IMG/VR virus record: IMGVR_UViG_3300006805_000056
Span: 1-41,561 of that record
Direction: 5' to 3' (one strand)
DNA from: a virus
DNA: 41,561 bases
The stretch's first letter is position 1; each line of letters starts with the position of its first letter. The notes under the pieces are model-generated. The model was not told the DNA's origin. It saw only the letters and a program-made list of their open reading frames with translations, and ran no database searches. Position numbers and translations under genes: made by a program. This document shows positions 2,851 to 41,561 of the stretch, piece after piece.

Positions 2851-2856
2851 GATTGA

Positions 2857-5056
2857 TTAGGCTAACATGTAATTAGCCTCAAGGATCGTATTACGGGAGA
2901 TCTTCCCATACTTCTTGATCTTGATCCTCTTGTTGGCAACCTGACATGCCATTGAGGTGAGGATGGTGGAGTCATTGATGTCAGCCATGATGGTATTGTA
3001 CTGACGACGCAGATCATTCCCGTAGTTAGGATGACAGCGGAAGCAGTCATGGTTTGAAACCAATTGGAATGGTTTCTTGGGAAGGGTTGCAATCAAAGCT
3101 TTGATTACATCATGGTCAACCAAACCAATGGTATCATCAAAGAGGTAATCAAGGATCCTGACAGACAGGAATCCTGTCTCTTGGTAGTGGCCCCATAGTT
3201 CTTGTACTCTTGGTGCAGATTGGAATGTGATTCCTTTTACTGGGTACTTCATTGCATGTTCTACACGAGCAATGGTCTGGGGATTGTACATGCAGCGGCG
3301 ATACATCTCACGTACCACCATACCATCAATGGAGTGGATGAGGTTAGGTCCTAGTCCCTTGTGGAACTCAGGCCGACCATCGATTTTCTTGGGTACAGCA
3401 TGGTCCTTGTCCATGAAGGTGAATGGGACTAAGACCTTCGTCTTGGTTTCGATACAAGCATGGAAGTTGTCAGGCAAGACCCAAGTGTAGGTGGATCCAG
3501 AGATCTTGTGCCACAGCTCTTGGAGTCCAAGGTTGAGATCCCATGCACCAGGAGCCATGGTCTCCATGGTTTCATAGAAGAGATCTACGTTACCAACGAA
3601 GGTCTTCTCAGGGGTCGAGGTAGAGCCATAGAGCGAGGTCATGATTGCATTCTTGACCTGTTTACGGGTTAACTTGTCACCAAGCTCCATGGATTCGTAG
3701 ATCGTGGTGTATGAGTCCACACACTGGTCAGACACACCTCCACAGAGGTCGAAGCTCTTGGGGCAGGATACCAGCAAGGAGAGGATCTGTAACATTTATC
3801 TTCGTTTTGATTTGTTAAATCAAAACCGTCTTAAAGATTACCAAAAGTCCATCCTTTGAGGGGAAGTGTTTTGGCTTCTTTATGTTCATTTGTGTAATGA
3901 AAACGATGACCAAGCTGCCTAGGTGTGACACCTAATTTAGCACCATAATCTTGTTTTGATTCACTATGAACCTCAACTCTTACATCTTCTGGTGTAATGT
4001 AATACCAAGGATTGAAGCCATTATTTGTTGAACCAGAAAGCCCTTTAGCAGGGTTTTTAATTCCACGAATTTTGTCTCCAGCAGACTTATCACCAGCCTT
4101 TTGAGCTGGTGTTCTTCCATCACCGGAATACTTTTGTCCGTATAAGACTCTAGATCTTCCTTTTTGGGTTTTGGAAATTTCTGCTTTATGTTCTTCAGTC
4201 AAAGACGATCCATGTTTATCATGGGTTTTTAGTCTTTGATTGTAGAATTCCCCAGAATCAACCGCATCGTATTCTTTGATGAGTTGTATCTCTAAGTCTA
4301 CAGCTTCTTGACGATTATCAAACACTTGCACAATCTTCTTTTTGCAAGTTTGATTTGTTCTTCCCTTAGGAAGACCAGATCCTGAACCAAGATAACAAGT
4401 ATCTAAGTCTGGTTTGATATTCGTAGAATGCAGTCCGATGTATTTCATTCCATCTGTAAACTGCAATGTGTAGACATAGTGGTATTGCATTTGAGTTCTC
4501 CTTGTCATCTGACTTACAGATTGTAACACGGAGGATGAGAGACTGCTATACCTTTCGGCATAGATGAGACTATATCTTCAACCTTTTACAAAGGTTGTTC
4601 CGCATTTCGGATCACTTGACCCTACTCCCGAAGGATAGTCGTTGAACCTTCTTCCTATAAGGAAGCTTGGCTGCTGATTGCCCAATTCTGTTCATTGTCA
4701 AACCGTGGCTTTGCTTTACAGCTCGCAGTGGTTGAACAGACTCTAAGGGGTTTCCAGCAATTAACGGAATGTTCGATGACCGTTACCGATCAAAGGGGCA
4801 TACATTTACCCGAAGAACAAGCATCCAGTGAGACCATGTACCCAGTGGCCTCACCCCTCTGTGTGGCTTCCAGGGCCAGTACAGCAGCTCGCAGGCCGAT
4901 AGGGTTAGATGCTTGCTTGTAGGTCTTGGAGTTCTTGAGATCGAGGGTAGCAAAGTGGGTGAGTCTGTCCTTCCAGATTGCTTTCTCAAAGGCTTTGTCA
5001 TGCTTGCAGGCGATTTCAGCTTGAAGGTACTGGAGGCCAGTGAGCTTCTCGAACAT
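2857..5056 (-). CDS. RNAP2: catalytic subunit of heterodimeric T7-like RNA polymerase, split by an intron
   Basis: Two exons, 5056-4808 (83 codons) and 3792-2857 (311 codons plus stop), join in frame to a 394-residue protein, close to the size of N4 gp16. With RNAP1 it should form the phage RNA polymerase that transcribes middle genes. Catalytic residues of the single-subunit RNA polymerase family are all present: D78 in motif A (SLDACSSG, at the exon junction), R126, K130 and Y138-G139 in motif B (spacing K to Y of 8, as in T7), and H331-D332 in motif C. The ATG at 5056 has CTAAGGAAC upstream and follows the previous stop closely. Unspliced mRNA would end at an in-frame stop 6 codons into the intron, before motifs B and C, so the gene depends on splicing. 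Unlike N4, the RNAP1 gene is not adjacent but about 2.9 kb upstream. Confidence 0.93.
3793..4807 (-). mobile_element. group I intron in RNAP2
   Basis: The 1015-nt insert separates polymerase motif A from the rest of the protein. The upstream exon ends in GGGT and the intron ends in G, as group I introns require. A GCCC 10 nt into the intron can pair with the exon GGGU as P1. Typical core segments occur in order on the minus strand: AATTGCTGGAAACCCC (4762-4747), CAATCAGCAGCCAAGC (4680-4665), TTCAACGACTATCC (4647-4634) and AGATATAGTC (4577-4568); the last two provide the P7 pairing. A 10-bp hairpin (3804-3826) sits just before the 3' splice site where P9 is expected. Exact boundaries are inferred from protein continuity and these rules. 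Confidence 0.9.
3831..4490 (-). CDS. GIY-YIG homing endonuclease inside the intron
   Basis: The 219-residue protein begins MQYHYVYTLQF and has the GIY-YIG signature in the form YVY then KYIG near residues 5-19. A NUMOD3-like stretch (LTEEHKAEISKTQKGRS) lies in the middle, followed by a basic region that probably binds DNA. ATG 4490 was preferred over the earlier in-frame start at 4529 because AAGGAG precedes it. The gene lies entirely in the intron, between the P7 segment and the 3' splice site. Such enzymes cut intron-less alleles at the insertion site, so the likely target is the RNAP2 motif A coding sequence of related phages. Confidence 0.92.
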   Translation of the reverse strand: MQYHYVYTLQFTDGMKYIGLHSTNIKPDLDTCYLGSGSGLPKGRTNQTCKKKIVQVFDNRQEAVDLEIQLIKEYDAVDSGEFYNQRLKTHDKHGSSLTEEHKAEISKTQKGRSRVLYGQKYSGDGRTPAQKAGDKSAGDKIRGIKNPAKGLSGSTNNGFNPWYYITPEDVRVEVHSESKQDYGAKLGVTPRQLGHRFHYTNEHKEAKTLPLKGWTFGNL

Positions 5057-5067
5057 TTGTTTGTTCC

Positions 5068-5352
5068 TTAGGAGAATGCGATGAGGTTGACTCGTTTTAC
5101 ACGAGCAATTGCACAAATCTTTTTGAGTCGATTTGTGTAGTTAGTGCTAGGAGCCTTGTCCAAAGCTGATTCAAGAACCTTAATGGGCATTTGTCCGGGG
5201 ACTTTATCCATCCAAAGACCCATTTTCATAGTGTCTACTAATGAGTAGAAGTTTCCATTAGCGATATTGAGAGTGGATTCGTTATCCCAATTGTCGGCGT
5301 GACAAATACACTTATGCTCATCTAGATAAGCTGGATAGATGTTAACGCTCAT
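5068..5352 (-). CDS. unknown protein, 94 aa
   Basis: The start ATG at 5352 overlaps the previous stop (ATGA) and has TGGAG upstream. The protein (MSVNIYPAYLDEHKC start) is soluble, with three cysteines and a basic C-terminal third. It ends 11 nt before RNAP2, whose ribosome site overlaps its stop codon, so it is directly co-translated with the polymerase. No family recognised. Confidence 0.75.
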   Translation of the reverse strand: MSVNIYPAYLDEHKCICHADNWDNESTLNIANGNFYSLVDTMKMGLWMDKVPGQMPIKVLESALDKAPSTNYTNRLKKICAIARVKRVNLIAFS

Positions 5353-6033: not shown

Positions 6034-6037
6034 TTTC

Positions 6038-7077: not shown

Positions 7078-7267
7078 TTGGTTTCTCCTTAGAGATTTGA
7101 GTTGGAAGGTATTTGGAGACCTGTAGAGCTTGCCATTGCACCTCGGCCTCAGATTTGGATTTGCCCCACTCATGGGACATCTCATCGTAGTCACGCCAAA
7201 GACCAGTTCCGGGTTTGCTCCCAGCATCTGGAATTTTGATCCAACGTTTGGTGTTACTCGTTGTCAT
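6998..7267 (-). CDS. unknown soluble protein, 89 aa
   Basis: Two ATGs in tandem (7270 and 7267) follow GGAG; spacing favours 7267. The protein (MTTSNTKRWIKIPDAGSKPG start) has a Trp-rich N-terminal part and a charged centre. It overlaps the preceding gene by 14 nt and the following one by about 80 nt. No family recognised. Confidence 0.65.
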   Translation of the reverse strand: MTTSNTKRWIKIPDAGSKPGTGLWRDYDEMSHEWGKSKSEAEVQWQALQVSKYLPTQISKEKPSDKEMGVQESTVAGVVSTRLEGHVPQ

Positions 7268-7400
7268 CATCAGCTCCAATGTTTCCGTTTGAAAAATGTT
7301 CAGAGTATTGCATCAGTAATCCAAGTCCTAGAATGGTCAGGATTCCAAGAATAGCGATGATAGGGTGGACTGAAGCTCCGATACTATCTGGAGGGAACAT
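7254..7400 (-). CDS. small membrane protein, 48 aa
   Basis: ATG 7400 is preceded by AAGGAAC. The earlier in-frame starts lie well inside the preceding gene and lack a ribosome site. The product has one clear hydrophobic segment (HPIIAILGILTILGLGLLM, residues about 12-30) and an acidic tail. Likely a single-span membrane protein of unknown role. Confidence 0.7.
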   Translation of the reverse strand: MFPPDSIGASVHPIIAILGILTILGLGLLMQYSEHFSNGNIGADDDNE

Positions 7401-7557
7401 GGAATAGTTCCTTGTATTGTCGCTCAAGCATGAGGCGACGGTTTTTGTGATGATCGTACATGGTGTAGTTGTGACGCTTTTGGTGGAATTCCTCCCAACC
7501 ACCTTCATCTGCGATTTCTAGTCCGAGTTCACGACGATCTACTTTCTTAGTTTCCAT
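7384..7557 (-). CDS. small unknown basic protein, 57 aa
   Basis: The frame could start at ATG 7575 or ATG 7557. Neither has a strong ribosome site; 7557 gives the smaller overlap with the preceding gene and is used here. The protein is rich in Arg, Lys and His (FHQKRHNYTMYDHHKNRR). It overlaps the next gene by 17 nt. Function unknown. Confidence 0.6.
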   Translation of the reverse strand: METKKVDRRELGLEIADEGGWEEFHQKRHNYTMYDHHKNRRLMLERQYKELFHVPSR

Positions 7558-7961
7558 CCAATGTTTTGCCACCATAGGTTAGTGAGTTTCTGTTTGATGA
7601 ATCTGAACAACTCAATCTCATCTTTGAGAGACTCATAGTCGTATTCAACATCATCGTCAGTCATCCACCCATCCCCACGAGTCCAGACAACAGTCAGTTT
7701 CTCGATGGTATAGGTGTGACCTTCTTTGAATTGTTCGATGTCGAAACCCAACATCTCTTTGATCAGATAGTCATAGCCAACAGTTTCATTTGCTCCACCG
7801 GCACATCCGTCAGAGTCTTCGATTTCAATCTCGAATACTCCAGGGATGTTCTGTTCAACAAAGAACTTGATGAAGCCTTCACCACTCCAATAGTGGTGTT
7901 CGTCTTCTTCAGAAGGCTCAAATTCAAAATCCCATTCTCCAAGGAGAAATTGTCCACTCAT
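7539..7961 (-). CDS. unknown acidic protein, 140 aa
   Basis: ATG 7961 overlaps the RNAP1 stop codon (ATGA) and has AAGGAAC upstream. The protein is strongly acidic, especially residues 1-50 (EFEPSEEDEHHYWSGEG), and has a Trp-rich basic end (LWWQNIGWK). Coupling to RNAP1 suggests a role early in infection, possibly linked to transcription. That is inference from position only. Confidence 0.75.
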   Translation of the reverse strand: MSGQFLLGEWDFEFEPSEEDEHHYWSGEGFIKFFVEQNIPGVFEIEIEDSDGCAGGANETVGYDYLIKEMLGFDIEQFKEGHTYTIEKLTVVWTRGDGWMTDDDVEYDYESLKDEIELFRFIKQKLTNLWWQNIGWKLRK

Positions 7962-8767
7962 TGCACCAGTTCCTTGTTTGCGAGTTGTAAACAGCTTTTA
8001 CGATAGTCATCACCTTGAGTAGAGACGTGGTAGCCAGAGGCGTAGACACGGCCTCTACGGTCGTATCTGTGAGTGAGGTAGATCTCATCACTGAGACCAT
8101 CCACGGTAGCCATTACCTCCAGGGATTGGGTGTAGAAGGTATTGGCTTGACGTACTCGCTTTTGGAACTCTTCGAAATCCTCTCCGATAGCTCGGACAGG
8201 TTTTATGAACTGAGCTTCTACAGAATTGATAACTTCAAAGTCCATAACGAGTGCTACGGAATTTGCACGATTCAGGTGATCAAGGCACATGTCCTTGTCA
8301 TCGAAGTACTCAGAGCCATTCAACACCACAGGTGTGTGGATAGTCAGGTATCCTGAGTCATGGTTATTCTTCACAGGCAGAGGCTTTGTGACCATGGGCA
8401 GAGGATACTGGTACAAATCCAGCATGGCTTTGATGTCATCAGAGACATCGTATTTGACCATGAAGCGTTCAGCTTCAGGATCGTAATCGAGGTAGTCTTG
8501 CAGGACCAGGATCAGCAGCTTATCAGCTACGATCTGAGGCTCACCATATTTGGGTGAGAGGATCCCAACCATCGTTGCTGGGTCAGCTTGTCGATGTAGA
8601 TAGATCTGAACCAGGGCTTCAGTTGCCATGGCTGGAGGCACTCCAAGATCTTCCATTATCGTGGGACTGACAATGGTAGCAAATTCTTCCCTGAGTACTG
8701 GAAGCAGTTGGTACTTGGAGAACAGGGTTTCCAGATCCTTCTGGGTTTCTTTGGTTGGCTGTTTCAT
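7958..8767 (-). CDS. RNAP1: N-terminal subunit of heterodimeric T7-like RNA polymerase
   Basis: The 269-residue protein matches N4 gp15 in size and kind. Near its C-terminus it has DRRGR (236-240) within YLTHRYDRRGRVYASG, the T/DxxGR motif that contacts the RNA-DNA hybrid in single-subunit RNA polymerases. The following QGDDYRKSCLQLA corresponds to the T7 polymerase segment just after that motif. The fold is completed by RNAP2, which carries motifs A, B and C. ATG 8767 is used rather than GTG 8770, with GAGGAAAC upstream; it overlaps the preceding stop as TGATG. In N4 the two subunit genes are adjacent; here eleven small genes separate them. Confidence 0.92.
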   Translation of the reverse strand: MKQPTKETQKDLETLFSKYQLLPVLREEFATIVSPTIMEDLGVPPAMATEALVQIYLHRQADPATMVGILSPKYGEPQIVADKLLILVLQDYLDYDPEAERFMVKYDVSDDIKAMLDLYQYPLPMVTKPLPVKNNHDSGYLTIHTPVVLNGSEYFDDKDMCLDHLNRANSVALVMDFEVINSVEAQFIKPVRAIGEDFEEFQKRVRQANTFYTQSLEVMATVDGLSDEIYLTHRYDRRGRVYASGYHVSTQGDDYRKSCLQLANKELVQ

Positions 8768-9027
8768 CACATGGTTTCCTCATGGAGGGTATTTTGCTGC
8801 ATATCCAAGACAGCGTATTCTTCTACGTTGTCATAGGATGAGAGGGAAACTTGTTTCCACTCGGTGACTGTATCTCCAGCGTAGCCGGATTTGTGGAAAT
8901 GAGATTTCACCTCATCCAGGTCTTTGGCTTCAACTACAGCTTGGTATCTGACAGTTGCATCACGAGCCACTTCGACAATGAATTTAGGCACGATAGACTC
9001 CAGTATAAATCCAGCCAAAACCACCAT
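8767..9027 (-). CDS. unknown protein, first gene of the RNAP operon, 86 aa
   Basis: The protein starts MVVLAGFILESIVPKF at ATG 9027 and ends in an ATGTGATG overlap with RNAP1. There is no clear ribosome binding site, so translation may rely on the AT-rich unstructured 48-nt leader that follows the promoter-like element at 9064-9092. The N-terminal part is hydrophobic but short; the rest is mixed and acidic. No known family is recognised. Its place ahead of RNAP1 suggests an early product. Confidence 0.65.
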   Translation of the reverse strand: MVVLAGFILESIVPKFIVEVARDATVRYQAVVEAKDLDEVKSHFHKSGYAGDTVTEWKQVSLSSYDNVEEYAVLDMQQNTLHEETM

Positions 9028-9063: not shown

Positions 9064-9092
9064 GAGTTGATCGCCAAAACTCGCGCAGCGAG
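9064..9092 (-). promoter_or_regulatory. hairpin promoter A, candidate virion RNA polymerase promoter
   Basis: A 5-bp stem with a 3-nt loop (9080-9092; the plus, template, strand reads CTCGC-GCA-GCGAG) is followed on the minus strand by TTTT and then GGCGATCA. N4 virion polymerase promoters have the same plan: 5-7 bp stem, 3-nt GNA-type loop on the template strand, four bases, start at GG. The predicted start is 9075, giving a 48-nt leader to the gene at 9027 and transcription of the RNAP1-RNAP2 operon. Two more copies lie at 9637-9665 and 10881-10909. Confidence 0.8.
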
Positions 9093-9148
9093 GGCAATTT
9101 ACTAGGTGATCAGAAGTCTATTTCCAGGACAAATATCTATCTCATTAA

Positions 9149-9192
9149 AAGCCTCTGGCCTCAACTACCCAGAAGGATAGTTGAGACCAGAG
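9149..9192 (-). terminator. terminator after the 133-aa gene
   Basis: A long stem (9153-9170 with 9175-9192, AGAA loop, one mismatch or wobble near the base and one near the tip) starts 9 nt after the stop of the gene at 9201 and ends in GGCTTTTAAT on the minus strand. It separates that gene from the RNAP operon. Confidence 0.85.
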
Positions 9193-9200
9193 TTGTAGGA

Positions 9201-9602
9201 TCAGCCGCCGAACAGCGCCTTCTCCAGATCGGCAGTTTCCTCCTTGGCAGGAGCAACCTCCGACTCTTCCTGACGACGATAGAGGACAACCTCAAGGTTG
9301 ATCGGGATGGAATCGCCTTCAGCCATCCCAGCACACTTGCTCTGGATGATGGTGATCAGACGGTTCATCAGCGATGCCTGAGCAGCGAAGTCCGGGTCCA
9401 TGGACTCGTAGATCTTGCGCGGCTTCAGATCGCTGACAGCGACGCCACGAGGCAGACGGACGAAGGTGGTCTCTTCGCCTTCGGTGCCCATCTGGACACC
9501 AAGGTTCAGCCAGAAGCCGTCGAACTCGTTGGTTTCCTCAACGGTACGCGATGCTGCACGAGTTGCGGTGGCTTTCTTCGAGACGGTGGTAACAATCGAC
9601 AT
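9201..9602 (-). CDS. unknown conserved-looking phage protein, 133 aa, own promoter and terminator
   Basis: ATG 9602 has AAAGGATC upstream. The protein begins with a basic Ala/Thr-rich tail. A globular core follows (FDGFWLNLGVQMG, then FVRLPRGVAVSDLKPRKIY), with an acidic C-terminus ending EKALFGG. The gene is GC-richer than its neighbours. With a hairpin promoter 46 nt before the start codon and a strong terminator after it, it forms a one-gene unit, which suggests a highly expressed early product. The layout is reminiscent of small ssDNA-binding-type phage proteins, but no motif proves this and I do not assign a function. Confidence 0.85.
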   Translation of the reverse strand: MSIVTTVSKKATATRAASRTVEETNEFDGFWLNLGVQMGTEGEETTFVRLPRGVAVSDLKPRKIYESMDPDFAAQASLMNRLITIIQSKCAGMAEGDSIPINLEVVLYRRQEESEVAPAKEETADLEKALFGG

Positions 9603-9636
9603 GGTTTGATCCTTTCACGGAGATCAAGGGAGTAAC

Positions 9637-9665
9637 GGCATGATTGCCTTAAGGTGCGCAGCACC
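9637..9665 (-). promoter_or_regulatory. hairpin promoter B, candidate virion RNA polymerase promoter
   Basis: The plus (template) strand hairpin is GGTGC-GCA-GCACC (9653-9665). The minus strand continues TTAA then GGCAATCATGCC, with the predicted start at 9648. The first 12 transcribed bases can themselves fold (GGCA with TGCC). It lies 46 nt upstream of the gene at 9602. Confidence 0.8.
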
Positions 9666-9723
9666 CTCTTGGGAGCTACGGGTAAACCCACTCCGCCCTT
9701 CGGGCTTCGTGAGGTAGGTGAGA

Positions 9724-9748
9724 GTCCAAAACAACAGGTATTTTGGAC
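9724..9748. repeat. 8-bp inverted repeat in the 9603-9764 gap
   Basis: GTCCAAAA (9724-9731) pairs with TTTTGGAC (9741-9748) around a 9-nt loop, 17 nt after the stop of the gene at 9765. No T-run follows on the minus strand, so it is not a canonical terminator. It may end or stabilise the upstream transcript. A smaller GCCC-TTCG-GGC hairpin lies just to its left. Confidence 0.5.
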
Positions 9749-9764
9749 CCCCAGAGAGAACGAG

Positions 9765-10016
9765 TCAGAGATCTTTGTAGACGTAACCGGGATTAAGTGA
9801 CTCCCAGTGATCAAGGGCGATACCTTCAAGATCAACGTCAGACTTGTCTTGTACATGAGCTTCACGGAAGTTGGTGATAGCCTCTTTGTCGAAGTCGCTG
9901 AGGTAGTCACCTGTGCCATCCATGATGGCAATAAGCCTAGCAGCCAACATCTTGGTAAACTCAAGTTCAACCTCGATGGTGGTTTTCTTGGTGAGCTGGA
10001 ATTTAAGAGCAGTCAT
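9765..10016 (-). CDS. unknown acidic protein, 83 aa
   Basis: ATG 10016 is preceded by AAGGATAAG and gives a protein starting MTALKFQLTKKTTIEVELEF. The longer frame from 10067 begins with an unrelated hairpin region and was not used. The product is acidic, soluble and lacks recognised motifs. It is the last gene of the unit starting at promoter C. Confidence 0.75.
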   Translation of the reverse strand: MTALKFQLTKKTTIEVELEFTKMLAARLIAIMDGTGDYLSDFDKEAITNFREAHVQDKSDVDLEGIALDHWESLNPGYVYKDL

Positions 10017-10057
10017 TGGCTTATCCTTCGATTGGCACATATGTGCGGAAGATTGGA

Positions 10058-10078
10058 TCCCAGACATAGAGTCTGGGA
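10058..10078. repeat. 8-bp inverted repeat between small genes
   Basis: TCCCAGAC and GTCTGGGA form a perfect 8-bp stem with a 5-nt loop, in the gap between the genes at 10111 and 10016. A 12-nt palindrome GCACATATGTGC lies next to it. No T-run follows, so it may be an RNA processing or stability element rather than a terminator. Confidence 0.5.
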
Positions 10079-10110
10079 CCGAGAGGTTGACCGTTGGTGT
10101 TCATCAACCC

Positions 10111-10239
10111 TTACCAGTCGGCAAGAGGTTGGATGACATGACGATAGGTGATCCCATCAGGGTTCATGCGAACAACGATGGTCTCAACATATTGGTCTCC
10201 ACAGCTGGAGACACGACGAACTTGGATTGCCTTAAGCAT
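10111..10239 (-). CDS. small unknown protein, 42 aa
   Basis: A short frame starts at ATG 10239 with AAGGAAAGAG upstream and encodes MLKAIQVRRVSSCGDQYVE and onward to a stop at 10111. It sits 34 nt after the membrane-protein gene in the same unit. Good ribosome site and packing support it; no family recognised. Confidence 0.65.
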   Translation of the reverse strand: MLKAIQVRRVSSCGDQYVETIVVRMNPDGITYRHVIQPLADW

Positions 10240-10273
10240 CGGCTCTTTCCTTGGTTTTCAGGGTGAAGGTTTT

Positions 10274-10525
10274 TCAGATCGAGCTGTAGATCAGCGTCAA
10301 TATGAGGGTGAGGGTGAGGTCGTACATCAGAGGTCTGATGGACCGGATGAGCAGCCATTGAGGCGCACCAGCGTAGTGGTCGTCATAGGCTTGGATCAGC
10401 TGCATGATGCAGGACATCGCAGCTATGAGCGAATAGATCGCTACCCACCAGTTGAGTGGTGAGTTGGGGAAGTTGGTGTGACCGTAGTCACAGACTATCG
10501 CTAGGATAGCGAATAGAGTAATCAT
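10274..10525 (-). CDS. small multi-span membrane protein, 83 aa
   Basis: ATG 10525 has GAGAGG upstream. Three hydrophobic stretches are visible: MITLFAILAIVCD, WWVAIYSLIAAMSCIMQLI and LMYDLTLTLILTLIY. Two or three membrane spans are likely. It resembles small early phage membrane proteins in size only; function unknown. The in-frame extension upstream to 10597 runs into a hairpin and was not used. Confidence 0.75.
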   Translation of the reverse strand: MITLFAILAIVCDYGHTNFPNSPLNWWVAIYSLIAAMSCIMQLIQAYDDHYAGAPQWLLIRSIRPLMYDLTLTLILTLIYSSI

Positions 10526-10570
10526 GGTAGACCTCTCCGATCCTAGGGATCTATCTATCTGGGTTCTTCT

Positions 10571-10597
10571 TTGGAGTACCCTTGTGGGATACTCCAA
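10571..10597. repeat. hairpin after the 84-aa gene
   Basis: TTGGAGTA and TACTCCAA form an 8-bp stem enclosing CCC/GGG with a one-base bulge and a TTGT loop. It begins 5 nt after the stop of the gene at 10602. It is placed like a terminator, but the following minus-strand bases are purine-rich rather than a T-run. Confidence 0.5.
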
Positions 10598-10601
10598 GTT
10601 G

Positions 10602-10856
10602 TCATGCGAAGAGCTTGACGGATTCTTCGAACAGGGCTTTCAGATCCGCGTCTGCATCAAGTTCTTTCTTGATAAGCAGCGAGTCTCGCGCAATGTCCAT
10701 GGCAGCATTGTTCTTTCCGGTTTCCCGGAGAACTACTGCCTTATTGTCAATCATGGTGGTGCCCATGGTGACGACTTCTTGCGTGGCGATTGCCACTTTA
10801 CCCACAGTATCAAGCGAAGCCTGAACTGCACGGCTGAGGGATGAGAACATGCTCAT
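10602..10856 (-). CDS. unknown small helical protein, 84 aa
   Basis: ATG 10856 has CTGGAG upstream at about 10 nt. The protein (MSMFSSLSRAVQASLDTVGK start) is predicted mostly helical from its heptad-like Ala, Leu and Val pattern. It lacks cysteine and ends with an acidic helix (ELDADADLKALFEESVKLF). It is the first gene after promoter C. A role as a small structural or regulatory early protein is possible but unproven. Confidence 0.75.
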   Translation of the reverse strand: MSMFSSLSRAVQASLDTVGKVAIATQEVVTMGTTMIDNKAVVLRETGKNNAAMDIARDSLLIKKELDADADLKALFEESVKLFA

Positions 10857-10880
10857 GGTGTGTAGCTCCAGTATATGAGG

Positions 10881-10909
10881 GGCATCAGTGCCAAGAGATG
10901 CGCAGCATC
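10881..10909 (-). promoter_or_regulatory. hairpin promoter C, candidate virion RNA polymerase promoter
   Basis: The plus (template) strand hairpin is GATGC-GCA-GCATC (10897-10909). The minus strand continues TCTT then GGCACTGATGCC, with the predicted start at 10892, 37 nt before the ATG at 10856. It shares loop, inner stem pairs, spacer length and start sequence with A and B. Confidence 0.8.
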
Positions 10910-10919: not shown

Positions 10920-11034
10920 GTGTACGTGGTAAGTTGAGGAGTGTACCCTTGGGTAGGACACACCAGTGGGGGGCATGATGTGTACCTGTCAGAAAAGACG
11001 GGGGGGTCACTTTGGTAGAGGACCCCAGGTGTAC
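10920..11034. repeat. four GTGTAC words in a GC-rich non-coding stretch
   Basis: The hexamer GTGTAC occurs at 10920, 10941, 10980 and 11029, within 115 bp. No gene lies between 10857 and 11246. The repeats may be protein-binding sites (iteron-like) next to an AT-rich stretch at about 11055-11145 (for example CTATAAAAAATTATG). Chance cannot be excluded for a 6-base word. Confidence 0.4.
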
Positions 11035-12195: not shown

Positions 12196-12272
12196 TGGTC
12201 TGCCTAGAGGGACTCGAACCCCCAACCTCGGAATTAGAAGTTCCTTGCTCTATCCAGTTGAGCTATAGGCAG
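12196..12272 (-). tRNA. tRNA-Arg (UCU)
   Basis: The minus strand folds into a cloverleaf with a 7-bp acceptor stem (CTGCCTA/TAGGCAG), T-loop TTCGAGT and anticodon loop CTTCTAA, giving anticodon UCU. CCA is encoded at the 3' end (12196-12198). It ends 18 nt from the stop of the convergent H-NS-like gene. It reads AGA and AGG. Confidence 0.93.
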
Positions 12273-12401
12273 ATAGTCCTGGATGTTCAGCACACATGCT
12301 GCGTTCATCGAGACGATAGCTCTCAGAGCCTGCGGGACGGATCCCTTCATTTCTCGATCTATGCCGCTGATGGGTTTCCCCACGAGCCATCCAAGGTAGT
12401 T

Positions 12402-12477
12402 TGGTAGTGGATGGTGGGCTTGAACCACCGACCTACGCCTTATCAGGGCGTTGCTCTACCGACTGAGCTAATCCACT
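12402..12477 (-). tRNA. tRNA-Ile (GAU)
   Basis: Acceptor stem AGTGGAT/ATCCACT, anticodon stem ACGCC/GGCGT with loop CTGATAA (anticodon GAU), T-loop TTCAAGC and encoded CCA. About 130 nt separate it from tRNA-Arg; I see no gene or tRNA in that gap. Confidence 0.93.
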
Positions 12478-12487
12478 AGAGTAGTAT

Positions 12488-12563
12488 TGGTGCCGCTAGT
12501 AAGATTTGAACTTACGACATCCTGCTTACAAGGCAGACGCTCTACCATCTGAGCTATAGCGGC
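12488..12563 (-). tRNA. tRNA-Thr (UGU)
   Basis: Acceptor stem GCCGCTA/TAGCGGC, anticodon loop CTTGTAA (anticodon UGU), T-loop TTCAAAT, discriminator A and encoded CCA. Confidence 0.93.
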
Positions 12564-12578
12564 ACGTATTGAATGAAT

Positions 12579-12655
12579 TGGTCTCCCCGGCAGGATTTGA
12601 ACCTGCGATTTCTAGTACCCAAAACTAGCGACCTACCAGACTGGCCTACAGGGAG
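12579..12655 (-). tRNA. tRNA-Pro (UGG)
   Basis: Acceptor stem CTCCCTG/CGGGGAG with one G-T pair, anticodon stem CTAGT/ACTAG with loop TTTGGGT (anticodon UGG), T-loop TTCAAAT, encoded CCA. Confidence 0.93.
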
Positions 12656-12661
12656 AGATGG

Positions 12662-12781
12662 TTATTGGGTTGGACCTGTTCTGATCCAATTGACTACAGC
12701 AAAGACAGTATCTTTGATCATGATATTGTATTTGACGGGGAGGAAAACTCCTACAACCAGTCCAATAATCAGATAAAACAT
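12662..12781 (-). CDS. tiny membrane protein among tRNA genes, 39 aa
   Basis: ATG 12781 is preceded by CGAGGAGAGG, a strong ribosome site. The product begins MFYLIIGLVVGVFLPVKY, one hydrophobic span, and ends with a short polar tail (NWIRTGPTQ). It lies between tRNA-Ser and tRNA-Pro; its stop is 6 nt before the tRNA-Pro 5' end. Function unknown. Confidence 0.65.
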   Translation of the reverse strand: MFYLIIGLVVGVFLPVKYNIMIKDTVFAVVNWIRTGPTQ

Positions 12782-12802
12782 AACACCTCTCCTCGAATAA
12801 GT

Positions 12803-12893
12803 TGGCGGAAGAAGTAGGATTCGAACCCACGGAACGCTCATCACGTCCTTCAGTTTTCAATACTGCTGCCTTAAGCCGCTCGGCCATTCTTCC
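12803..12893 (-). tRNA. tRNA-Ser (UGA)
   Basis: A 91-nt tRNA with the long variable arm expected for serine. Acceptor stem GGAAGAA/TTCTTCC, anticodon loop TTGAAAA (anticodon UGA), T-loop TTCGAAT, discriminator G, encoded CCA. Confidence 0.93.
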
Positions 12894-33341: not shown

Positions 33342-36300
33342 ATGGTTGATGCTCCGACCTATGCCAATTCACCTTTGGCTAATGCCGATTTTCTCGCAAC
33401 TGTTCGTCCAGTAGCAAAACCTCAACTCACGGATGCTGAAAGAGAAAATCAGCTCCGTGGGCAAAGGGCTGCTGTTCGTGCAAGAGATGCCAATGAGATT
33501 ATTGGTGATGCTCTGTTGTCAGCCGGTGCTGGTTTTGAGTCCATGGTTGGGTCTGTTGCCAGCCTCAGTATGCGAGGAATTGGTAAGGGCATTGAAGCTG
33601 TCAGTAAGAAGGACTCTCTTGGAGCTGACATCGGTAGCTTGGTTTCTGATTATGGTGTTGGTCTGGCTCAAGCTACTGATAAGACTGTTGAAAACATTGG
33701 AAGCCTTAAATCTGCACCCTCACAAGAAACTGCTGATCTGACTGGACAAATCAGCCAGATCAAGAGTGCAGAGAGTGAAGCCCAATATGCAAAAGACATT
33801 GCTGATGGGGATTCCTCCTTCATTGCTGGACTAACCAAGGTTGGCCGTGATGTCATCAACTTTGGTGAAGTTACCTTGAGTGATAGCTCTGCTACGGCAG
33901 ATCTGGTCACTGGTGCTCTTGGTTCACTGGCTCCAAGTGCTCTCATTGCCAAGACTGGGACCAAGCTCACAATTGCTGGTGCTGAACGCCTTGGAATGAA
34001 AGCTGGCACGAAGGGTGCCAAGATTGCTGAGACTATCGGTAGTGCCGCTGGTATAGGTGTAGTCGAAGCTTCATCGGCCTATCAATCCACAGTTAATGAA
34101 GTGATGGGGATGACCCATGAGGATCTTCTTAACTCGTCTCAAGAGTATATCGATCTTCTGAATGAAGGTCTGTCTACTGAGAATGCCAAAACCAAGCTTG
34201 CCGATAGTGCAGGGATGCAGGCGTTTGAGACGCAGCTTCCTCTGGCTATGGCTGCTGGTCTGACAACTGCCAAGTTCAACGCTAATCCCCTTACAGCCTT
34301 TGGTGATAAGAATCTGATAGATGGACTGAAGGAAATTGGTAAGCAGACAGTAGAAGAAAGCTTCCAAGGTGGTACTGGTCAATACAGCCAGAACACTGCG
34401 ATCCGGGACCAAGTGGATTCCACCAGAAGCCTTACTGAAGGTGTTGGTGATCAGATTGCTGGTGGTGCTATCGGTGGCTTCGGTATGGCCGGTGCTATTG
34501 ATGTGGCTGATACTTCAGTTCGTGTAGCCAAGCTTCCTGCGAAGATTGCAGCTGCTGGTATTGATCTAGCCTCCAAGGTTCCTGCTGGAGACATTCTCAG
34601 CAAAGCTCTGGACGTTGGATCCTCTGGGATTGGTGCTGCTGCTTCCTACGCTGCTGAGGCAGTTAAGAAGGCAGCTCCGACGATCACTGGTGGCATCGAG
34701 ACACTCAAGGCGTCTGTGGCCCCTGCCATGGAGTCTGTGAAGGCATTCACAGAGAAACCAAATCCCAAGATCCAGACTGATAATATCGACGCTGGTGTTA
34801 AGGCTTCGATCCTGGCTCAGGAAACTCTGACCAATGCACCCGATCAGGTTTCTGATGGTCTTCGTAAGTTCTCACAGGACGTAGATACTACTCCTGTTCC
34901 TGAGACATTTACTGAGAATGTGGCTGAAGGATCTAACCTCATCGACACTGTAACAGGTGTGATGAAGACTTTCGCCAAACCAGAAGTATCGATTGCTCGT
35001 CTAAGCGATAGCGATATCCTCTATGCTTCAAAGAAGTTCAATGAACTCCAGTCAATTGTTGGAGATCTTCCTTCTGAAATTCAGAATGAAGTTACCAAGG
35101 TTCTGGCTTCCCCTGACTTTGTTAGAGTGCAGAAGCGTGCTGCTCGGATTGATCTCAATGAGTCTGTGGCTCCTGATGCAGCTGTCACACCAGATGTGAA
35201 AGCAACCACGGTTTCTGTGGCTAGAACCAATCCGGCCAACGTTAACCCAGATGTGATTAACAAGATCCTGGAACAGGATGATCGTACTGACCTGACTGAA
35301 GACGACATCAAGTACATGGGTACTGCTGCCAAGATTGCCAGAACGATTAATGATCGTGTTGGTCGTATGGTGGAGATTTCCAGAGAGACAGAGGTTGCTC
35401 TGTCTTCCAAGTCTGGAAACACAACCCCTGCAAAAACAGCAGACCAAGTTTCACGTTCTATCCTGGTTTCTGGGATGAATGGTGCTGATGGGTCCAAACT
35501 CCCTTCGATCAATGACTACGCTGCTGACATCTTCAAAGGTGTCCAATCTTCAAGTGGCACAGTCACAGACAAGAATGGAATTGCTGTTCCTGTTGGTTCG
35601 GTTGCCAAACAAATGGGTATGTTTGTTCAGCATATGAAGAACAAGGTGGAAGCCTTGAATACTTCCTATGATCAGAACGATGCTCGGGGTACTGGTCCTA
35701 CTGTCCCATTTGATACTTTGATCCAGGGACGTGAGATGCGTCCTGCCAATATGGCGGGATCTTCATCGGCCTACTACCACCGCAAGAGTGAGAAGAGTGT
35801 TGAACAAGCAAAGCTTACCCATGCTGATGCTGTGGCCTCAGCTGAGGTTTACAATGCTTTGGTAGAGACATTCCCTGAACTGTTTCCTTCAGGAAAAGTG
35901 AAGATACCAACACTCCGCGGTTTGAATGCTCCTGCTGAAGTTGTTGAAACTAAAGCAGAAGTCGAAGTTGAAGAACCTTCGGAAAAAGTTATCGAAAAAG
36001 AAGAAGATAACTCTCAGGATAATTCTGAACCTAAAGAGTCTTCGCTTACTGAAAAAGTAGCGAAGGAAATTGAAGATGGTTTTGATAAACTTGCAGAGGG
36101 TGCAAAGAGAGCTGCTCAGCAAAGAGTAGTGGATCTCATTTCTAGTGGTAAAGAGGTTACCTATCTAAAAGAGGCTTCCATCAATGCAGCTAAGAATGAT
36201 CCTAATCTCAATCTCAGAGAAAATGATGATGGATCAGTCACCGTAGTTGGGATCAAGTTTGATGGAAAGTGGGTGGGAAAAGAACCACAACCACAAACAA

Positions 36301-39300
36301 CGGCTGTCGAGGATGCGATTTCCGCACCAGCGGAAAACGTGGCCGAGCAGACGCCAGAAGTAGAACTGGAAACTGAACGTAATGAGAAGGGAAAGTACCT
36401 TACCTTCAATAATCCGGGTGGTCAGCTTCTGGCTGATAAACAAGCTACGGCTGAGAGCTTGATGAAACAGAAGCATTCTCCTCTCCGGGCTAACCGTGGG
36501 AAGGGCCTGATTGGCCTCACAACTGCTTTCACCAATGAGCCTCTCATGCTGCCTGTGAGTATGCTCAAGGATCTCCCTGGGGCTGCTGATGAGAACCGTG
36601 TGGAAGGTGATGGCAAGTTTGACCGTCTGAATACTCTGGTTCAGAAGTATGGCTTCAAAGAAGACCAGGACGGCAACGCTGTTGTCATTGGTGTGAACCA
36701 CTTGGGTCAGGCTTTCCTGATCGACGGGAATACTCGTACTGCTGTGGCTGCTGCTAACGGTGTGGAAAATATCCGTGCTGAGGTGAAGTGGTTCAATGGT
36801 GGTGAATCTGCTGAAGGTCCTATCACCCCTGAGAGTGTGGCTGCTGCTGTCCAGAAGGAAACTGCTCCCGATTTGTTTGGGCTGGGAACAGACAAGGAAA
36901 TTTTTGATAATGAAATGTCAAAACAGTTTAGAGAAAAATTGACAGATTTTCTGAGTGAGTCTTTTGGTGATGAGCTTGTGGGCTTTGTTTTGGAGAATAT
37001 TACTGGATTCTTTAGCATCTTCAACGAAACAGAAAGTGGTGCAGTTCACTCTTATGGAGGTCAGATGATGCTTGGGTTTGAGCATAGTATAGTTATGGAT
37101 ATGCTTTACAAAGACCTGAACACACAACAAAAACACACAATTCTTCATGAAATTGGTCACATCGTTGATAGTCTCTTTCTTAAAACATCTCTTGATGGTG
37201 AGTCTGTAGTTAAAGAGTGGTACTCAAATGCTTCCTTTTTGAAGGAAGCAGAATCACTTGTATTTAGAGATGAAAACTCAAATATGGCTGAGTTTCTGCT
37301 GTCCTATGCTCTAAGACAAACCAACACGTATAAGAAGAAATCAGAGCTGTTTGCAGAAATGTTTTCTCTTGCAACAAAAGATATGGAAAGGTTGAAAAAT
37401 GAACTCCCCAAAATCGCAGCTTTCTTCGAAAGCTTCATCAAAAGAATCGAAACCGATACTCAAAACGCTTTCGGACCCAAAAACGTTGGGACAAAAAGCT
37501 CCTTGGTAAGTGAGGAAGAATCCTATGTAGAGAACACAAACACTGGAGCTGTTGAGACTCCCAATGATAGTACTCCTGAAGTATTCACGGTCTCTCAACA
37601 GTTCATGGATACTTTTACAGAAAGTGACAAACCCACTGAATACACCAACTCAGATAAGCTGCTAGACTTGGTTTCCAAGCGTGAAGGAACTGAAGCCTAT
37701 GTCGAGTTTGCCAAGCCTTTGGTGAAGACTCTGGTCGAAGGGATGCAGGAACGTCTGCCACTCATCCAGAGCAAGATGTCTCAGAGTGACAAAGACGAAG
37801 GGACTAAGCTGGTCCGCTTCAAAAACATGATGCTCGTGGACCCAACAACGGGCCTCTACAATGAGGCTCTGCTGAGCCTTGGTGCAGTGACCGTGGTGGA
37901 CTGGCTCACCTCTGTGAGAGGCATGGGCGCTGGCCGTCTGAGCGATACTTTGGAAGATCTCGGGCTGACCTCGTTCGATCTCTCCTCAGATGACATTAAG
38001 TCGATCATGAACAGTGTCCCGGTTCGTCAGGCTGTAGAGCAAATGGCCAAGGACATGGTTCGTCTGTGGAACGTGAAGGCAAATACTGATGCCTCTATGG
38101 TGGACATTCGTGGTGCGACTGAAGGTCTGATCAAAGAACTCCTGGTAGTTCTCAGCGAGAATACTGACTTCATCGACATCATCGAAATCAAGGTTGCCAA
38201 GGATGGTGTGGACAACGCAACTGCTGCTGCCATTGACGTTTCTGGTATGAAGGATACCCAGAAAACTCTGGGTATTGTTGGTCAAAACTCAGTACAGAAA
38301 ACTCTGTATCCTGAAGAAACCATCATGGCTTCTATTGGTGAACCAATTCAAGGAACTGATCAAACTCAATCCCGTGGGAATGTGTCTTTGAGCAAGCTGG
38401 AAAAAGCTGCTTTGAAGCGTATGCAGGATACCCCCCATTACGCTGATGATGGGTTTACTGGTTTCCTGAGTGCCATTGGTTTCGAACCACTCTCACATCT
38501 TCTGGGGTGGAAGGATCCTTCGGCTCTTCCTGAGAACCATCCTCTTCGGATCTCTATCGAGGGTAAAAATATCTCGATCCAACGGGACTACGAAGATGCC
38601 ATGATGATGTCTGATGCCATTGGTTCAGCTGGGGGGAATGGTGTTCCCGTGTACTACCCGGTTGGTATTTCCAAAGTGGGTCGTCACCAGATGAAAGGGA
38701 TCAACCCGCAGAACAACAAGATCCTTCGGGCCATGGTTACACCTACATGGAGTGATCTGGACATGACTGTTCAGGCTGACAAAGATGCCTTCTGGCTGAC
38801 TGTTGCGCAAGGCTCTGGCCTTGCAAAGGTCGAAAGCAAGTCTCACACCTTGATCCTGAATACGATCCAGAAAGACTTCAAAGCCACATACAACGATGCT
38901 TTGGATATTGTTGGGAAGTATCTGGAGACAGGTATTCTGGATGCTACGGCTTTGATTACTGCTCTTGGTACTGCTGAGATGGCAGTGATCAAGACTGTGT
39001 TTGCCGTAGCTGAATTGGAGAAAGCTACTCGTGATGGTAAGCTCTCAACCTTCCGTACCTCTCTGAGTTTCGAACTGGACGGCAAGACGGATGGTCCTGC
39101 CAACATGATGTCCAACTTCGGTCAGGGCATGGTGACTTCAGCTGACTACAACAACTTTGCTCGGGTTGGTTTCTTCCTCGGTAGATTGGGGATGACCTTG
39201 AACAAATTCTTCAAGAAGGGTGAGTTAGGTGAAAACGTTGACCTTTACGAAGTCACCTCGAACAAGGGAGATCTCGGTCTCTACAAGATGATCGGTAAAG

Positions 39301-41561
39301 CTAGTGAAACAGAGAAAGCTGTACTCTATGCGGCCCAACGGTTTGCTGGTGTTTTCGGTGACTTCAAGATCAACGAAGATGGCTCCATCACCATGACTAG
39401 GAATACTGCCAAGAACCCTATGACCAAGACGGTTTATGGTTCTGGTGTGAAGGGTGTTGGTGATGGTATCGCACAAGAAATGATGCTGGAGTTCTATAAC
39501 CAACTGGTTCAGCTCCCTGCTGGAACTGATCTGGCTGCCCACTTTAACTACCCTGGGATTGAGAAAGACGTAGAGCTTCTGTTTGGTCAGAAACTCCCTT
39601 CACCTTTGAACGTGAATACCTTCCAGTTTTCCAAAGCTGCTGCGGTCCTCTTCTCTGATGTAGTTACCAAATCAATTGGTACTGTGCTTTCAGAGACTGC
39701 CAAGAGTGTGATTGGTGACAAGATCACAGAGGTGAATGACCTCTTGGTTTTCATCACTGGGGTTCAGACTCAGTTTATCTCTGGCCTGTATCAGAAGAAA
39801 CTCGATGAGCTGGTAGAAGCTCGTGCTGTTGAAGGGAAGATCTCCCGGAACAAGCAGGGCAAGGGTGTAGTCAGAGAACTGTCTCAGCGTGACTACGATG
39901 AGCTGGTGAAGGAACTGCGGTCCTACTCCCCTGTGTACTCTAACGGCTCTCAGACGCTCGCTATTGGCTCGTTCTCAGGCAAGCCCAGCGACATCGAGAT
40001 GTCTTCAACCATGGACGGTAGGCTCCGGGTCAAGGCCACTATGGCTACGCCTGACATCGCTGGTGTGAAGGTGATCCCTTACATCTCCATTGGTCGTGGT
40101 GACGCCATGATGATGAATACCATCTACGGCTCGGAGAATGCTCCTTCGGACACGATCCCAGTGTTTGATGGTATCGATATGCCGATCAGCAAGATCATGG
40201 CCTATGCCAACCAGATCAACGAAGCGGTCATGAACAACTGGGACAGCAATGTGCTAGGCGATATTCTGACAGACTTTGAGAAGTTTATGGGTCAAGTGTC
40301 TGAAAACACTGATCTTCTGGAAAAGGCTTTTGAAGTTGTGAAGAAAACTTCATTTAATTCTACAGTCGTTTCCAGTGGAACCAACACCGCTCAGGAACTT
40401 CTGGAGAAGCTGAAGGAAGCCGTTCGTCAAAACCAAGCCCGTAAGGCAGTGTTCAAGCGTATTGCTGTGTCGGTCGATCACATGGGTGGATCCGGGACTT
40501 CCTACGTCCGTGGGGACAAGGAATACACCCGTGACCAGATCAACCAGATGATTGCTGCAGAACTCGATGGGGTAGTTATCCCTGTTGAAGTCACGCCTGT
40601 AGTTGAGGCTGAGCCTACTCCTGTAGTGACTGAACCAGAAGTGAAGAAACCAGAGGCTGGGAAGTTTTCTTCCCTGGTTACTACAGACACCAACACGATG
40701 TTGACTGCTCTGGAGAAAGAAACTCGGAACAAGAATGTGCGGGAAACTGTGAAGGTTCTTCGTTCGCTCCTGAATGACAACTTCAAGGTTGTCACCGGAT
40801 CTATGGATGACATTCTCGCTTGGAGAAAAGAAAACCTCGGGGATGTAGCTATCCTTCCCAATCGGAAAGGTTTCTTCGATATTGAGAACAAGACAATTTT
40901 CCTGACGGAAAACAATCATGAAACTATCGCCCATGAGATGATCCACCTCGCTACATTTGAGGTGGTACTTGCCCACTACAATGGTGAGCAAAACAAGTAT
41001 GTGGATCGTCTTGAAGAACTCATGGAAGAGTTCCTAGCCATGGATTTCAACGATGTTCCAAAGGAAGTTGCTGATGCAGCAAATTCAGCTCGGGCACAGA
41101 TCCTAAAGAATAGGTTCTCAAGCGAACCATTCTACAAGGCTGTGACACTCAATGAGTTTATGGCTTGGACCTTAACTAATGAGGCTTTGATCAAGACCCT
41201 GAAGAACACCGAAGTGAAGATCCTCTCAAGGTTCACAAAGGGTGCTCTGGCTCTGATCAAGCGTATCCTTGGAATGGATACTGTTCCTTGGGACATGTAT
41301 TCTAATATTCTGTTCAACACTCTGATCATTGGCCAACCTTCAGGAAACACTGGAGATGGTGGTAACGGTGATGGTGGTGGAAACAACAACAATAACTCAG
41401 GTGGGGAAGTAACTCCTCCTGCCCATAACTTCACGAATTTCTGGATTGATCTTGTCAGAGAACGTCTGAACATTGCTAACCAAACTCGTGATGGTAAAGG
41501 CAAGATCAAGCAGCTGAACCGCTATATCAAGGTGGCTGATGATGCTACTACCAAGCTGGAC
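33342..41561 (+). CDS. virion RNA polymerase polyprotein (N4 gp50 type), C-terminus beyond window
   Basis: The frame stays open for 2740 codons to the edge; N4 gp50 has about 3500. The single-subunit polymerase motifs are SKVGR (1777-1781), D1913 in ELDGKTDG (motif A), R2020, K2024 and Y2032 in motif B (K-Y spacing 8; D-to-K distance 111 as in N4), and D2254 in IGRGDAMMM (motif C). The enzyme is injected with DNA and transcribes early genes. Upstream are an Ala/Gly-rich N-terminal region, a ParB-like domain (about 1040-1150, with IDGNTR) and an HEIGH zincin-like domain (HEIGH 1269-1273, ELFAEMF 1335-1341). Downstream are HEMIH (2531-2535) with NEFMAW (E2605), and a Gly/Asn linker (2668-2688). 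GAGGA precedes ATG 33342, in a hairpin. Confidence 0.95.
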   Translation, partial: MVDAPTYANSPLANADFLATVRPVAKPQLTDAERENQLRGQRAAVRARDANEIIGDALLSAGAGFESMVGSVASLSMRGIGKGIEAVSKKDSLGADIGSLVSDYGVGLAQATDKTVENIGSLKSAPSQETADLTGQISQIKSAESEAQYAKDIADGDSSFIAGLTKVGRDVINFGEVTLSDSSATADLVTGALGSLAPSALIAKTGTKLTIAGAERLGMKAGTKGAKIAETIGSAAGIGVVEASSAYQSTVNEVMGMTHEDLLNSSQEYIDLLNEGLSTENAKTKLADSAGMQAFETQLPLAMAAGLTTAKFNANPLTAFGDKNLIDGLKEIGKQTVEESFQGGTGQYSQNTAIRDQVDSTRSLTEGVGDQIAGGAIGGFGMAGAIDVADTSVRVAKLPAKIAAAGIDLASKVPAGDILSKALDVGSSGIGAAASYAAEAVKKAAPTITGGIETLKASVAPAMESVKAFTEKPNPKIQTDNIDAGVKASILAQETLTNAPDQVSDGLRKFSQDVDTTPVPETFTENVAEGSNLIDTVTGVMKTFAKPEVSIARLSDSDILYASKKFNELQSIVGDLPSEIQNEVTKVLASPDFVRVQKRAARIDLNESVAPDAAVTPDVKATTVSVARTNPANVNPDVINKILEQDDRTDLTEDDIKYMGTAAKIARTINDRVGRMVEISRETEVALSSKSGNTTPAKTADQVSRSILVSGMNGADGSKLPSINDYAADIFKGVQSSSGTVTDKNGIAVPVGSVAKQMGMFVQHMKNKVEALNTSYDQNDARGTGPTVPFDTLIQGREMRPANMAGSSSAYYHRKSEKSVEQAKLTHADAVASAEVYNALVETFPELFPSGKVKIPTLRGLNAPAEVVETKAEVEVEEPSEKVIEKEEDNSQDNSEPKESSLTEKVAKEIEDGFDKLAEGAKRAAQQRVVDLISSGKEVTYLKEASINAAKNDPNLNLRENDDGSVTVVGIKFDGKWVGKEPQPQTTAVEDAISAPAENVAEQTPEVELETERNEKGKYLTFNNPGGQLLADKQATAESLMKQKHSPLRANRGKGLIGLTTAFTNEPLMLPVSMLKDLPGAADENRVEGDGKFDRLNTLVQKYGFKEDQDGNAVVIGVNHLGQAFLIDGNTRTAVAAANGVENIRAEVKWFNGGESAEGPITPESVAAAVQKETAPDLFGLGTDKEIFDNEMSKQFREKLTDFLSESFGDELVGFVLENITGFFSIFNETESGAVHSYGGQMMLGFEHSIVMDMLYKDLNTQQKHTILHEIGHIVDSLFLKTSLDGESVVKEWYSNASFLKEAESLVFRDENSNMAEFLLSYALRQTNTYKKKSELFAEMFSLATKDMERLKNELPKIAAFFESFIKRIETDTQNAFGPKNVGTKSSLVSEEESYVENTNTGAVETPNDSTPEVFTVSQQFMDTFTESDKPTEYTNSDKLLDLVSKREGTEAYVEFAKPLVKTLVEGMQERLPLIQSKMSQSDKDEGTKLVRFKNMMLVDPTTGLYNEALLSLGAVTVVDWLTSVRGMGAGRLSDTLEDLGLTSFDLSSDDIKSIMNSVPVRQAVEQMAKDMVRLWNVKANTDASMVDIRGATEGLIKELLVVLSENTDFIDIIEIKVAKDGVDNATAAAIDVSGMKDTQKTLGIVGQNSVQKTLYPEETIMASIGEPIQGTDQTQSRGNVSLSKLEKAALKRMQDTPHYADDGFTGFLSAIGFEPLSHLLGWKDPSALPENHPLRISIEGKNISIQRDYEDAMMMSDAIGSAGGNGVPVYYPVGISKVGRHQMKGINPQNNKILRAMVTPTWSDLDMTVQADKDAFWLTVAQGSGLAKVESKSHTLILNTIQKDFKATYNDALDIVGKYLETGILDATALITALGTAEMAVIKTVFAVAELEKATRDGKLSTFRTSLSFELDGKTDGPANMMSNFGQGMVTSADYNNFARVGFFLGRLGMTLNKFFKKGELGENVDLYEVTSNKGDLGLYKMIGKASETEKAVLYAAQRFAGVFGDFKINEDGSITMTRNTAKNPMTKTVYGSGVKGVGDGIAQEMMLEFYNQLVQLPAGTDLAAHFNYPGIEKDVELLFGQKLPSPLNVNTFQFSKAAAVLFSDVVTKSIGTVLSETAKSVIGDKITEVNDLLVFITGVQTQFISGLYQKKLDELVEARAVEGKISRNKQGKGVVRELSQRDYDELVKELRSYSPVYSNGSQTLAIGSFSGKPSDIEMSSTMDGRLRVKATMATPDIAGVKVIPYISIGRGDAMMMNTIYGSENAPSDTIPVFDGIDMPISKIMAYANQINEAVMNNWDSNVLGDILTDFEKFMGQVSENTDLLEKAFEVVKKTSFNSTVVSSGTNTAQELLEKLKEAVRQNQARKAVFKRIAVSVDHMGGSGTSYVRGDKEYTRDQINQMIAAELDGVVIPVEVTPVVEAEPTPVVTEPEVKKPEAGKFSSLVTTDTNTMLTALEKETRNKNVRETVKVLRSLLNDNFKVVTGSMDDILAWRKENLGDVAILPNRKGFFDIENKTIFLTENNHETIAHEMIHLATFEVVLAHYNGEQNKYVDRLEELMEEFLAMDFNDVPKEVADAANSARAQILKNRFSSEPFYKAVTLNEFMAWTLTNEALIKTLKNTEVKILSRFTKGALALIKRILGMDTVPWDMYSNILFNTLIIGQPSGNTGDGGNGDGGGNNNNNSGGEVTPPAHNFTNFWIDLVRERLNIANQTRDGKGKIKQLNRYIKVADDATTKLD

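Follow-up and report, generated by a model that had tools for sequence, protein, structure and literature searches.

Predicted hairpin promoters with cytosine at position -11 in the early region of an N4-like phage

Results

The stretch of DNA analyzed here, which we call the window, is the 41,561-nt virus record IMGVR_UViG_3300006805_000056. It covers about half a genome and contains these Schitoviridae markers: virion RNA polymerase (vRNAP), RNAP1, RNAP2, gp2-like protein, portal, major capsid and terminase. The closest cultured relatives are roseophages (Rhodovirinae); a tree was also made. Judged by its sequence, this DNA comes from an N4-like phage of the Schitoviridae, near the marine Rhodovirinae. 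Its early region and polymerase genes contain the following features.

10968..11006, minus strand: paired C-runs upstream of promoter 1 (C7 at 11000-11006 and C6 at 10968-10973, 33 nt apart)
10881..10909, minus strand: early promoter 1 (predicted); plus strand GCC-AAGA-GATGC-GCA-GCATC, hairpin 10897-10909, spacer 10893-10896, +1 at 10892
10602..10856, minus strand: first early gene after promoter 1, 84 aa (phrog_14155, unknown function)
9637..9665, minus strand: early promoter 2 (predicted); plus strand GCC-TTAA-GGTGC-GCA-GCACC, hairpin 9653-9665, spacer 9649-9652, +1 at 9648
9201..9602, minus strand: gp2-like gene after promoter 2 (phrog_4099; annotated in relatives as N4 gp2-like protein)
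9153..9192, minus strand: intrinsic terminator with an 18-bp stem, past the gp2-like gene and directly before promoter 3
9064..9092, minus strand: early promoter 3 (predicted); plus strand GCC-AAAA-CTCGC-GCA-GCGAG, hairpin 9080-9092, spacer 9076-9079, +1 at 9075
8767..9027, minus strand: small ORF of 86 aa, downstream of promoter 3 and overlapping RNAP1
7958..8770, minus strand: RNAP1, the middle-gene polymerase subunit (phrog_2166, N4-like RNA polymerase; family match and alignment)
4790..5116, minus strand: N-terminal exon of RNAP2 (phrog_2051 positions 1-80)
2857..3795, minus strand: C-terminal exon of RNAP2 (phrog_2051 positions 81-401)
33342..41561, plus strand: vRNAP (phrog_2206, E=0), 2740 aa read, continuing past the window end
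37683..40535, plus strand: RNA polymerase domain of vRNAP, residues 1448-2398 (predicted model)
37815..37817, plus strand: Arg1492 codon, -11 recognition element (alignment column)
40026..40028, plus strand: Arg2229 codon, equivalent of R904 in N4 mini-vRNAP (alignment column)

A family search gave no match for the small ORF at 8767-9027. RNAP2 is split (2857-5116, minus strand): its two exons are separated by an ORF for a homing endonuclease (3831-4529) and by a group I intron that matches Rfam RF00028 (4546-4817). The minus strand also carries a tRNA cluster at 12196-12893, upstream of the early region, with five genes (Arg, Ile, Thr, Pro and Ser).

The vRNAP lacks its C-terminus in the window and, as read, contains zero cysteine. 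PDB chains of N4 vRNAP match it with an E-value of about 1e-119. The predicted polymerase domain has a mean pLDDT of 85.8 and a TM score of 0.88 to the N4 mini-vRNAP/promoter complexes (3c3l/3c46). Outside this domain, residues 1269 and 2531 mark two metallopeptidase-like HExxH motifs (HEIGH and HEMIH), where a Pfam search was blank.

The first-pass annotation of this DNA had described three hairpins with a 5-bp stem, a GCA loop and GC closing pairs, followed after four bases by GG, and direct reading of the sequence bears this out. At all three the plus strand is the template and the minus strand is transcribed. The inner GC/GC pairs, the GCA loop, the 4-nt spacer and the template CC at +1/+2 are identical in the three copies. 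The three outer stem pairs are different in each copy with pairing intact in all, as had been noted. The start codons placed shortly downstream on the minus strand are there as well, 36, 46 and 48 nt from +1 (10892 to 10856, 9648 to 9602 and 9075 to 9027). In DNA folding the 5-bp, 3-nt hairpin is the minimum at every site, with -2.5 to -3.6 kcal/mol; identical folding parameters give -2.4 to -2.7 kcal/mol for N4 P2 and P1.

The annotation had also proposed a motif scan. We counted C-N4-NNNGC-GNA-GCNNN, with a perfect 5-bp stem required, in the window and in 300 dinucleotide shuffles of it. The window holds three such motifs, all with a GCA loop and all on one strand, which is above chance: the shuffles average 0.047 motifs with a maximum of 1, and the observed count is about 60 times the expectation.

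Hairpin promoters of the N4 vRNAP, with stems of 5-7 bp and loops of 3 nt, are textbook knowledge. Their rules are -10G, -8G, +1C and a fixed spacer; K114 contacts -10G, R119 contacts -11G, W129 is stacked on -11, D901 and R904 touch -9/-10 and -8, and A or G (a purine) is accepted at -11 (PMC4496689). As a positive control, the identical scan of N4 positions 1-9000 returned exactly three sites, at 90, 559 and 4548, which are P1-P3. These precede gp1, gp2 and gp15 and serve gp1, gp2 and the RNAPII genes; in the window the hairpins lie before an early gene, before the gp2-like gene and before the operon of RNAP1. Like N4, the window has a 5-bp template-strand hairpin with a 3-nt loop, a C:G closing pair, -10G, -12A and a GG start. 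Its sites agree with N4 at -8, -9, -10, -12, -13, -14 and +1 and in the 4-nt length of the spacer, whose bases (AAAA, TTAA or AAGA on the template) differ from N4. G is found at -8 in all three, with Arg2229 at the R904 column of a giant vRNAP of the gp50 family. The N4 plan claimed in the annotation is supported by a vRNAP encoded in the window, by equivalent early genes and by base agreement with N4.

Unlike N4, all three window sites have C at -11, and the -11 element of the window polymerase is short and hardly alignable to the K114-W129 segment of N4. The sites are best described as hairpin promoters of the N4 type that carry cytosine at -11 in place of the purine required in N4. Since -11 is not a purine, we term them a variant and not a strict member of the N4 type.

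The Rhodovirinae roseophages (DSS3phi2, EE36phi1, RLP1/RPP1, phiCB2047-B and others) share their early gene order and vRNAP family with the window, and their vRNAPs are 32-37% identical to that of the window over the matched parts. We read the early regions of about 20 Rhodovirinae-like phages, both cultured phages and IMG/VR contigs. A scan restricted to the GC/GC stem of N4 overlooked most roseophage promoters, which were recovered once -8 and the stem were relaxed. Nearly all of the roughly 20 relatives have two to four hairpins at equivalent places, including upstream of gp2; in DSS3phi2 the 5-bp stems are at 1130 and 2587. In all eight near-complete records (R7L, G017, DSS3phi2, G011, G015, G002, AX and G020; 69-76 kb each) the class motif is confined to the early region and always lies on the coding strand. 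The comparison with relatives suggested in the annotation has therefore turned up equivalent hairpins in the same places.

Our catalogue comprises 66 sites from 24 sequences, N4 included. T is present at -4 in 63/66 and at -1 in 55/66, and G at +2 in 51/66; the scan did not impose these three biases, and G at +1 was required for most sites. LIT1, LUZ7, RHEph16, OLIVR1 and JWAlpha have few or odd hairpins and were left out of the catalogue; JWAlpha and OLIVR1 enter the table of -8 against R904 with one hairpin each. A family search for RNAP1 among the vRNAP contigs gained one genome. In the case of G031, polymerase and early region (L017) are taken from two separate contigs of one metagenome, and their pairing is assumed.

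The roseophage promoters differ from those of the window in having G or A at -11 or another loop (GTT in R2C, a tetraloop in RLP1). Sorted by the template bases at -8 and -11, or by their stems, the sites fall into these classes.

-8 G, -11 C: window
-8 A, -11 C: L008
-8 C, -11 C: L020/G015
-8 C, -11 G: DSS3phi2, EE36phi1, R7L, AX, RD-1410Ws-07, L017
-8 G, -11 G: G017
-8 G, -11 A: G004, G011, one site each of G016 and G020
Tandem-mismatch stems: L007/G002, L006/G022, L010, L011/G006, RD-1410W1-01, V13, phiCB2047-B, R2C, one site each of G016 and G020

The template GCA loop with C at -11 is found in L006/G022, L008 and L020/G015 besides the window. With the window this makes at least four lineages, so C at -11 defines a class and is not a peculiarity of one phage. 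L006 and G022 are one genome by their 22-nt overlaps at both ends, so this is a second phage with -11 C for which promoters and polymerase are both known. The contigs L025 and G022 (IMGVR 3300016675_000071 and _000012) overlap by 22 nt at both ends and are apparently one genome of about 74.7 kb.

The tandem-mismatch stems carry C.T/T.C at their two central pairs when read on the coding strand, which equals tandem G.A on the template. Stems of this kind also occur in L041, L037, L004 and L040, and Agrobacterium phage OLIVR1, outside the Rhodovirinae, has one such hairpin (L101 6977-6993). Apparent 4-nt loops are seen in Roseovarius phage RLP1 (TAAC; L003, 364 and 1057) and in Rhizobium phage RHEph16 (TTAC and TTGC; L100, near 62 and 3055).

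Promoter bases were set against polymerase residues in an alignment of 33 vRNAPs. At the R904 column, which was chosen beforehand from the N4 structure, 25 phages could be scored. Arg or Lys occupies this column in 11 of them, all 11 with G at -8, and none of the 10 phages with C or A at -8 has either residue there (Fisher p=5e-4, uncorrected for relatedness). Exceptions with -8G but no Arg/Lys are G006, G022, Pokken and OLIVR1, and V13 is mixed. In its unbiased column scan R904 ranks only about tenth.

For -11 we made an unbiased scan of all polymerase-domain columns against seven residue classes (6986 tests). The best correlate of A versus G/C at -11 is a column two positions from N4 W129, within the -11 element, which is short and gappy in the alignment (p=7e-5; p=7e-4 for the next best column). 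It holds R/K in 11/11 phages with G or C at -11, and D/E/Q in those with A except for one Lys, in G016. In the window this column is Arg1492. G002 and G022 are close sisters on the tree and differ in the -11 base as well as in this residue, with A and D in the former and C and R in the latter. Among the independent pairs (4-6), every change was as expected or there was no difference, and none was opposite; these are too few for a sign test to reach 0.05 for either R904 or the -11 column. Since -11 varies together with the -11 element of the polymerase, we read the C as a change in specificity and not as evidence against promoter function. The annotation had suspected that this polymerase may read a different base at -11, and the covariation in relatives supports it.

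Discussion

We consider it very likely that the three elements are early promoters of an N4-like phage, read by its own vRNAP. The case consists of a rare motif in the right position, a polymerase encoded in the same window, the presence of such hairpins in relatives and the correlation with polymerase residues. How the promoters would work is modeled on N4, from which we carry over extrusion, dependence on SSB and gyrase, binding and the exact point of initiation. First into the cell would come the vRNAP together with the leading end of the genome. Negative supercoiling by host gyrase would extrude the 13-nt inverted repeats, and the vRNAP would bind the hairpin on the template strand. The specificity loop, with Arg2229 in the place of N4 R904, would read -8G, and the -11 element, formed around Arg1492 and the Phe after it and close to the R119/W129 region of N4, may read the central loop base C. 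A 4-nt ruler from the base of the stem would fix +1 at the template CC, so the RNA would begin with GG. The three transcripts would express the early gene, the gp2-like cofactor and an operon whose start lies ahead of RNAP1.

The start of these putative transcripts contains a second inverted repeat. The annotation had included a semi-conserved TCATGCC in the promoter element. This sequence is present at two of the three sites but does not belong to the hairpin; it forms the 3' arm of an inverted repeat beginning at +1, which reads GGCA-AUCA-UGCC as RNA.

10892-10881, minus strand: transcript inverted repeat GGCACUGAUGCC, promoter 1
9648-9637, minus strand: transcript inverted repeat GGCAAUCAUGCC, promoter 2

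The repeat is absent at promoter 3 (9064-9075). N4 P1 (GGACAUGUUGUCC) and P2 also have an inverted repeat at +1. Of the 66 sites, 61% can fold the initial 18 nt of their RNA into a hairpin of four or more base pairs that begins at +1 or +2, versus 20% for shuffled sequence; part of this frequency is due to common descent of the gp2 site. With repeats so common at the 5' end of the RNA, some RNA-level function may exist alongside. One could go further and argue that the hairpins are RNA- or DNA-level sites for another factor, such as an operator or an RNA-stability element, beside host sigma-factor promoters. No sigma-70-like promoter was found before any of the genes, however (alphaproteobacterial promoters can deviate), an Rfam search of the sites gave no match, and such sites would not be expected to match the N4 promoter rules or to correlate with the vRNAP. 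We therefore regard this explanation as very improbable.

Slightly less probable still is that the hairpins are short intrinsic terminators or attenuators of the preceding genes, in which a 5-bp GC stem is followed by a T-rich stretch. Terminators are common at the ends of early phage genes, and the minus strand past the stems reads TTTT, TTAA and TCTT. The same stem-TTTT look is shown by N4 P2, however, which is a proven promoter. Our terminator scan called none of the three hairpins, and the gp2-like gene is already served by an 18-bp terminator of its own (9192-9153), with promoter 3 located past it. Moreover, the stem sequence varies while loop, closing pairs, 4-nt spacer and GG stay constant, and -8 and -11 follow polymerase residues. 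Chance inverted repeats are hardly credible at all: generic 5-bp/3-nt repeats with CC four bases off do number 8 in the window with about 5 expected, but the specific motif far exceeds its expectation, on a single strand and at the right positions, and its conservation across relatives refutes chance.

If the hairpins are promoters read by the vRNAP, the classes among relatives call for an explanation of their own. We lean towards the view that Rhodovirinae hairpins and vRNAPs diverged jointly into mutually exclusive recognition classes. A, G or C at -11 would be read via the -11 element, with R/K where the base is G or C and D/E/Q where it is A, and G versus C or A at -8 via the R904 position. 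Further classes would be formed by the tetraloop and by the tandem-mismatch stems, whose G.A pairs on the template would be sheared. Under this view, natural hairpin promoters on single-stranded DNA and their polymerases would make up an orthogonal set.

Hairpin promoters have been predicted in silico by analogy with N4 upstream of early genes in the Pseudomonas phages LIT1/LUZ7 (PMC3715699), at four sites with N4 P2-like GGA template loops in Klebsiella phage KP8 (PMC6950046) and in the Pectobacterium phages CB1/CB3/CB4, with a central purine described for CB1 (PMC6027278). A LIT1 site in our own data, at position 3287, has a central T (TAC loop). For RPP1/RLP1 the authors report that a promoter consensus could not be identified (PMC4193335). 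In the open literature we searched, proven vRNAP hairpin promoters are those of N4 alone, and the main texts on predicted N4-like promoters include none on Rhodovirinae and none that tie promoter changes to polymerase residues; an earlier description in subscription papers or supplementary tables is possible. Promoters are now proposed for the window and about 20 relatives. The purine demanded by N4 at -11 is no general rule, and residues of the polymerase that vary along with this base can be named. Natural variants thus offer a way to test how a single-subunit RNA polymerase recognizes a DNA hairpin, and they could yield orthogonal promoter-polymerase pairs.

A minor observation concerns the paired C-runs upstream of promoter 1. 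They have no second such pair within the window and lie near the left end of the genome. In most relatives examined, among them L042, L037, L004, L040, L006, L007, L013, L016-L018, L022, L038 and L002, a C7 and a C6-7 separated by about 33 nt precede the first early promoter by some 25-100 nt, and the N4 counterpart is one C9. In G015, the position of the C-run pointed to a third hairpin there, with a 4-bp form, CC-TGC-GG.
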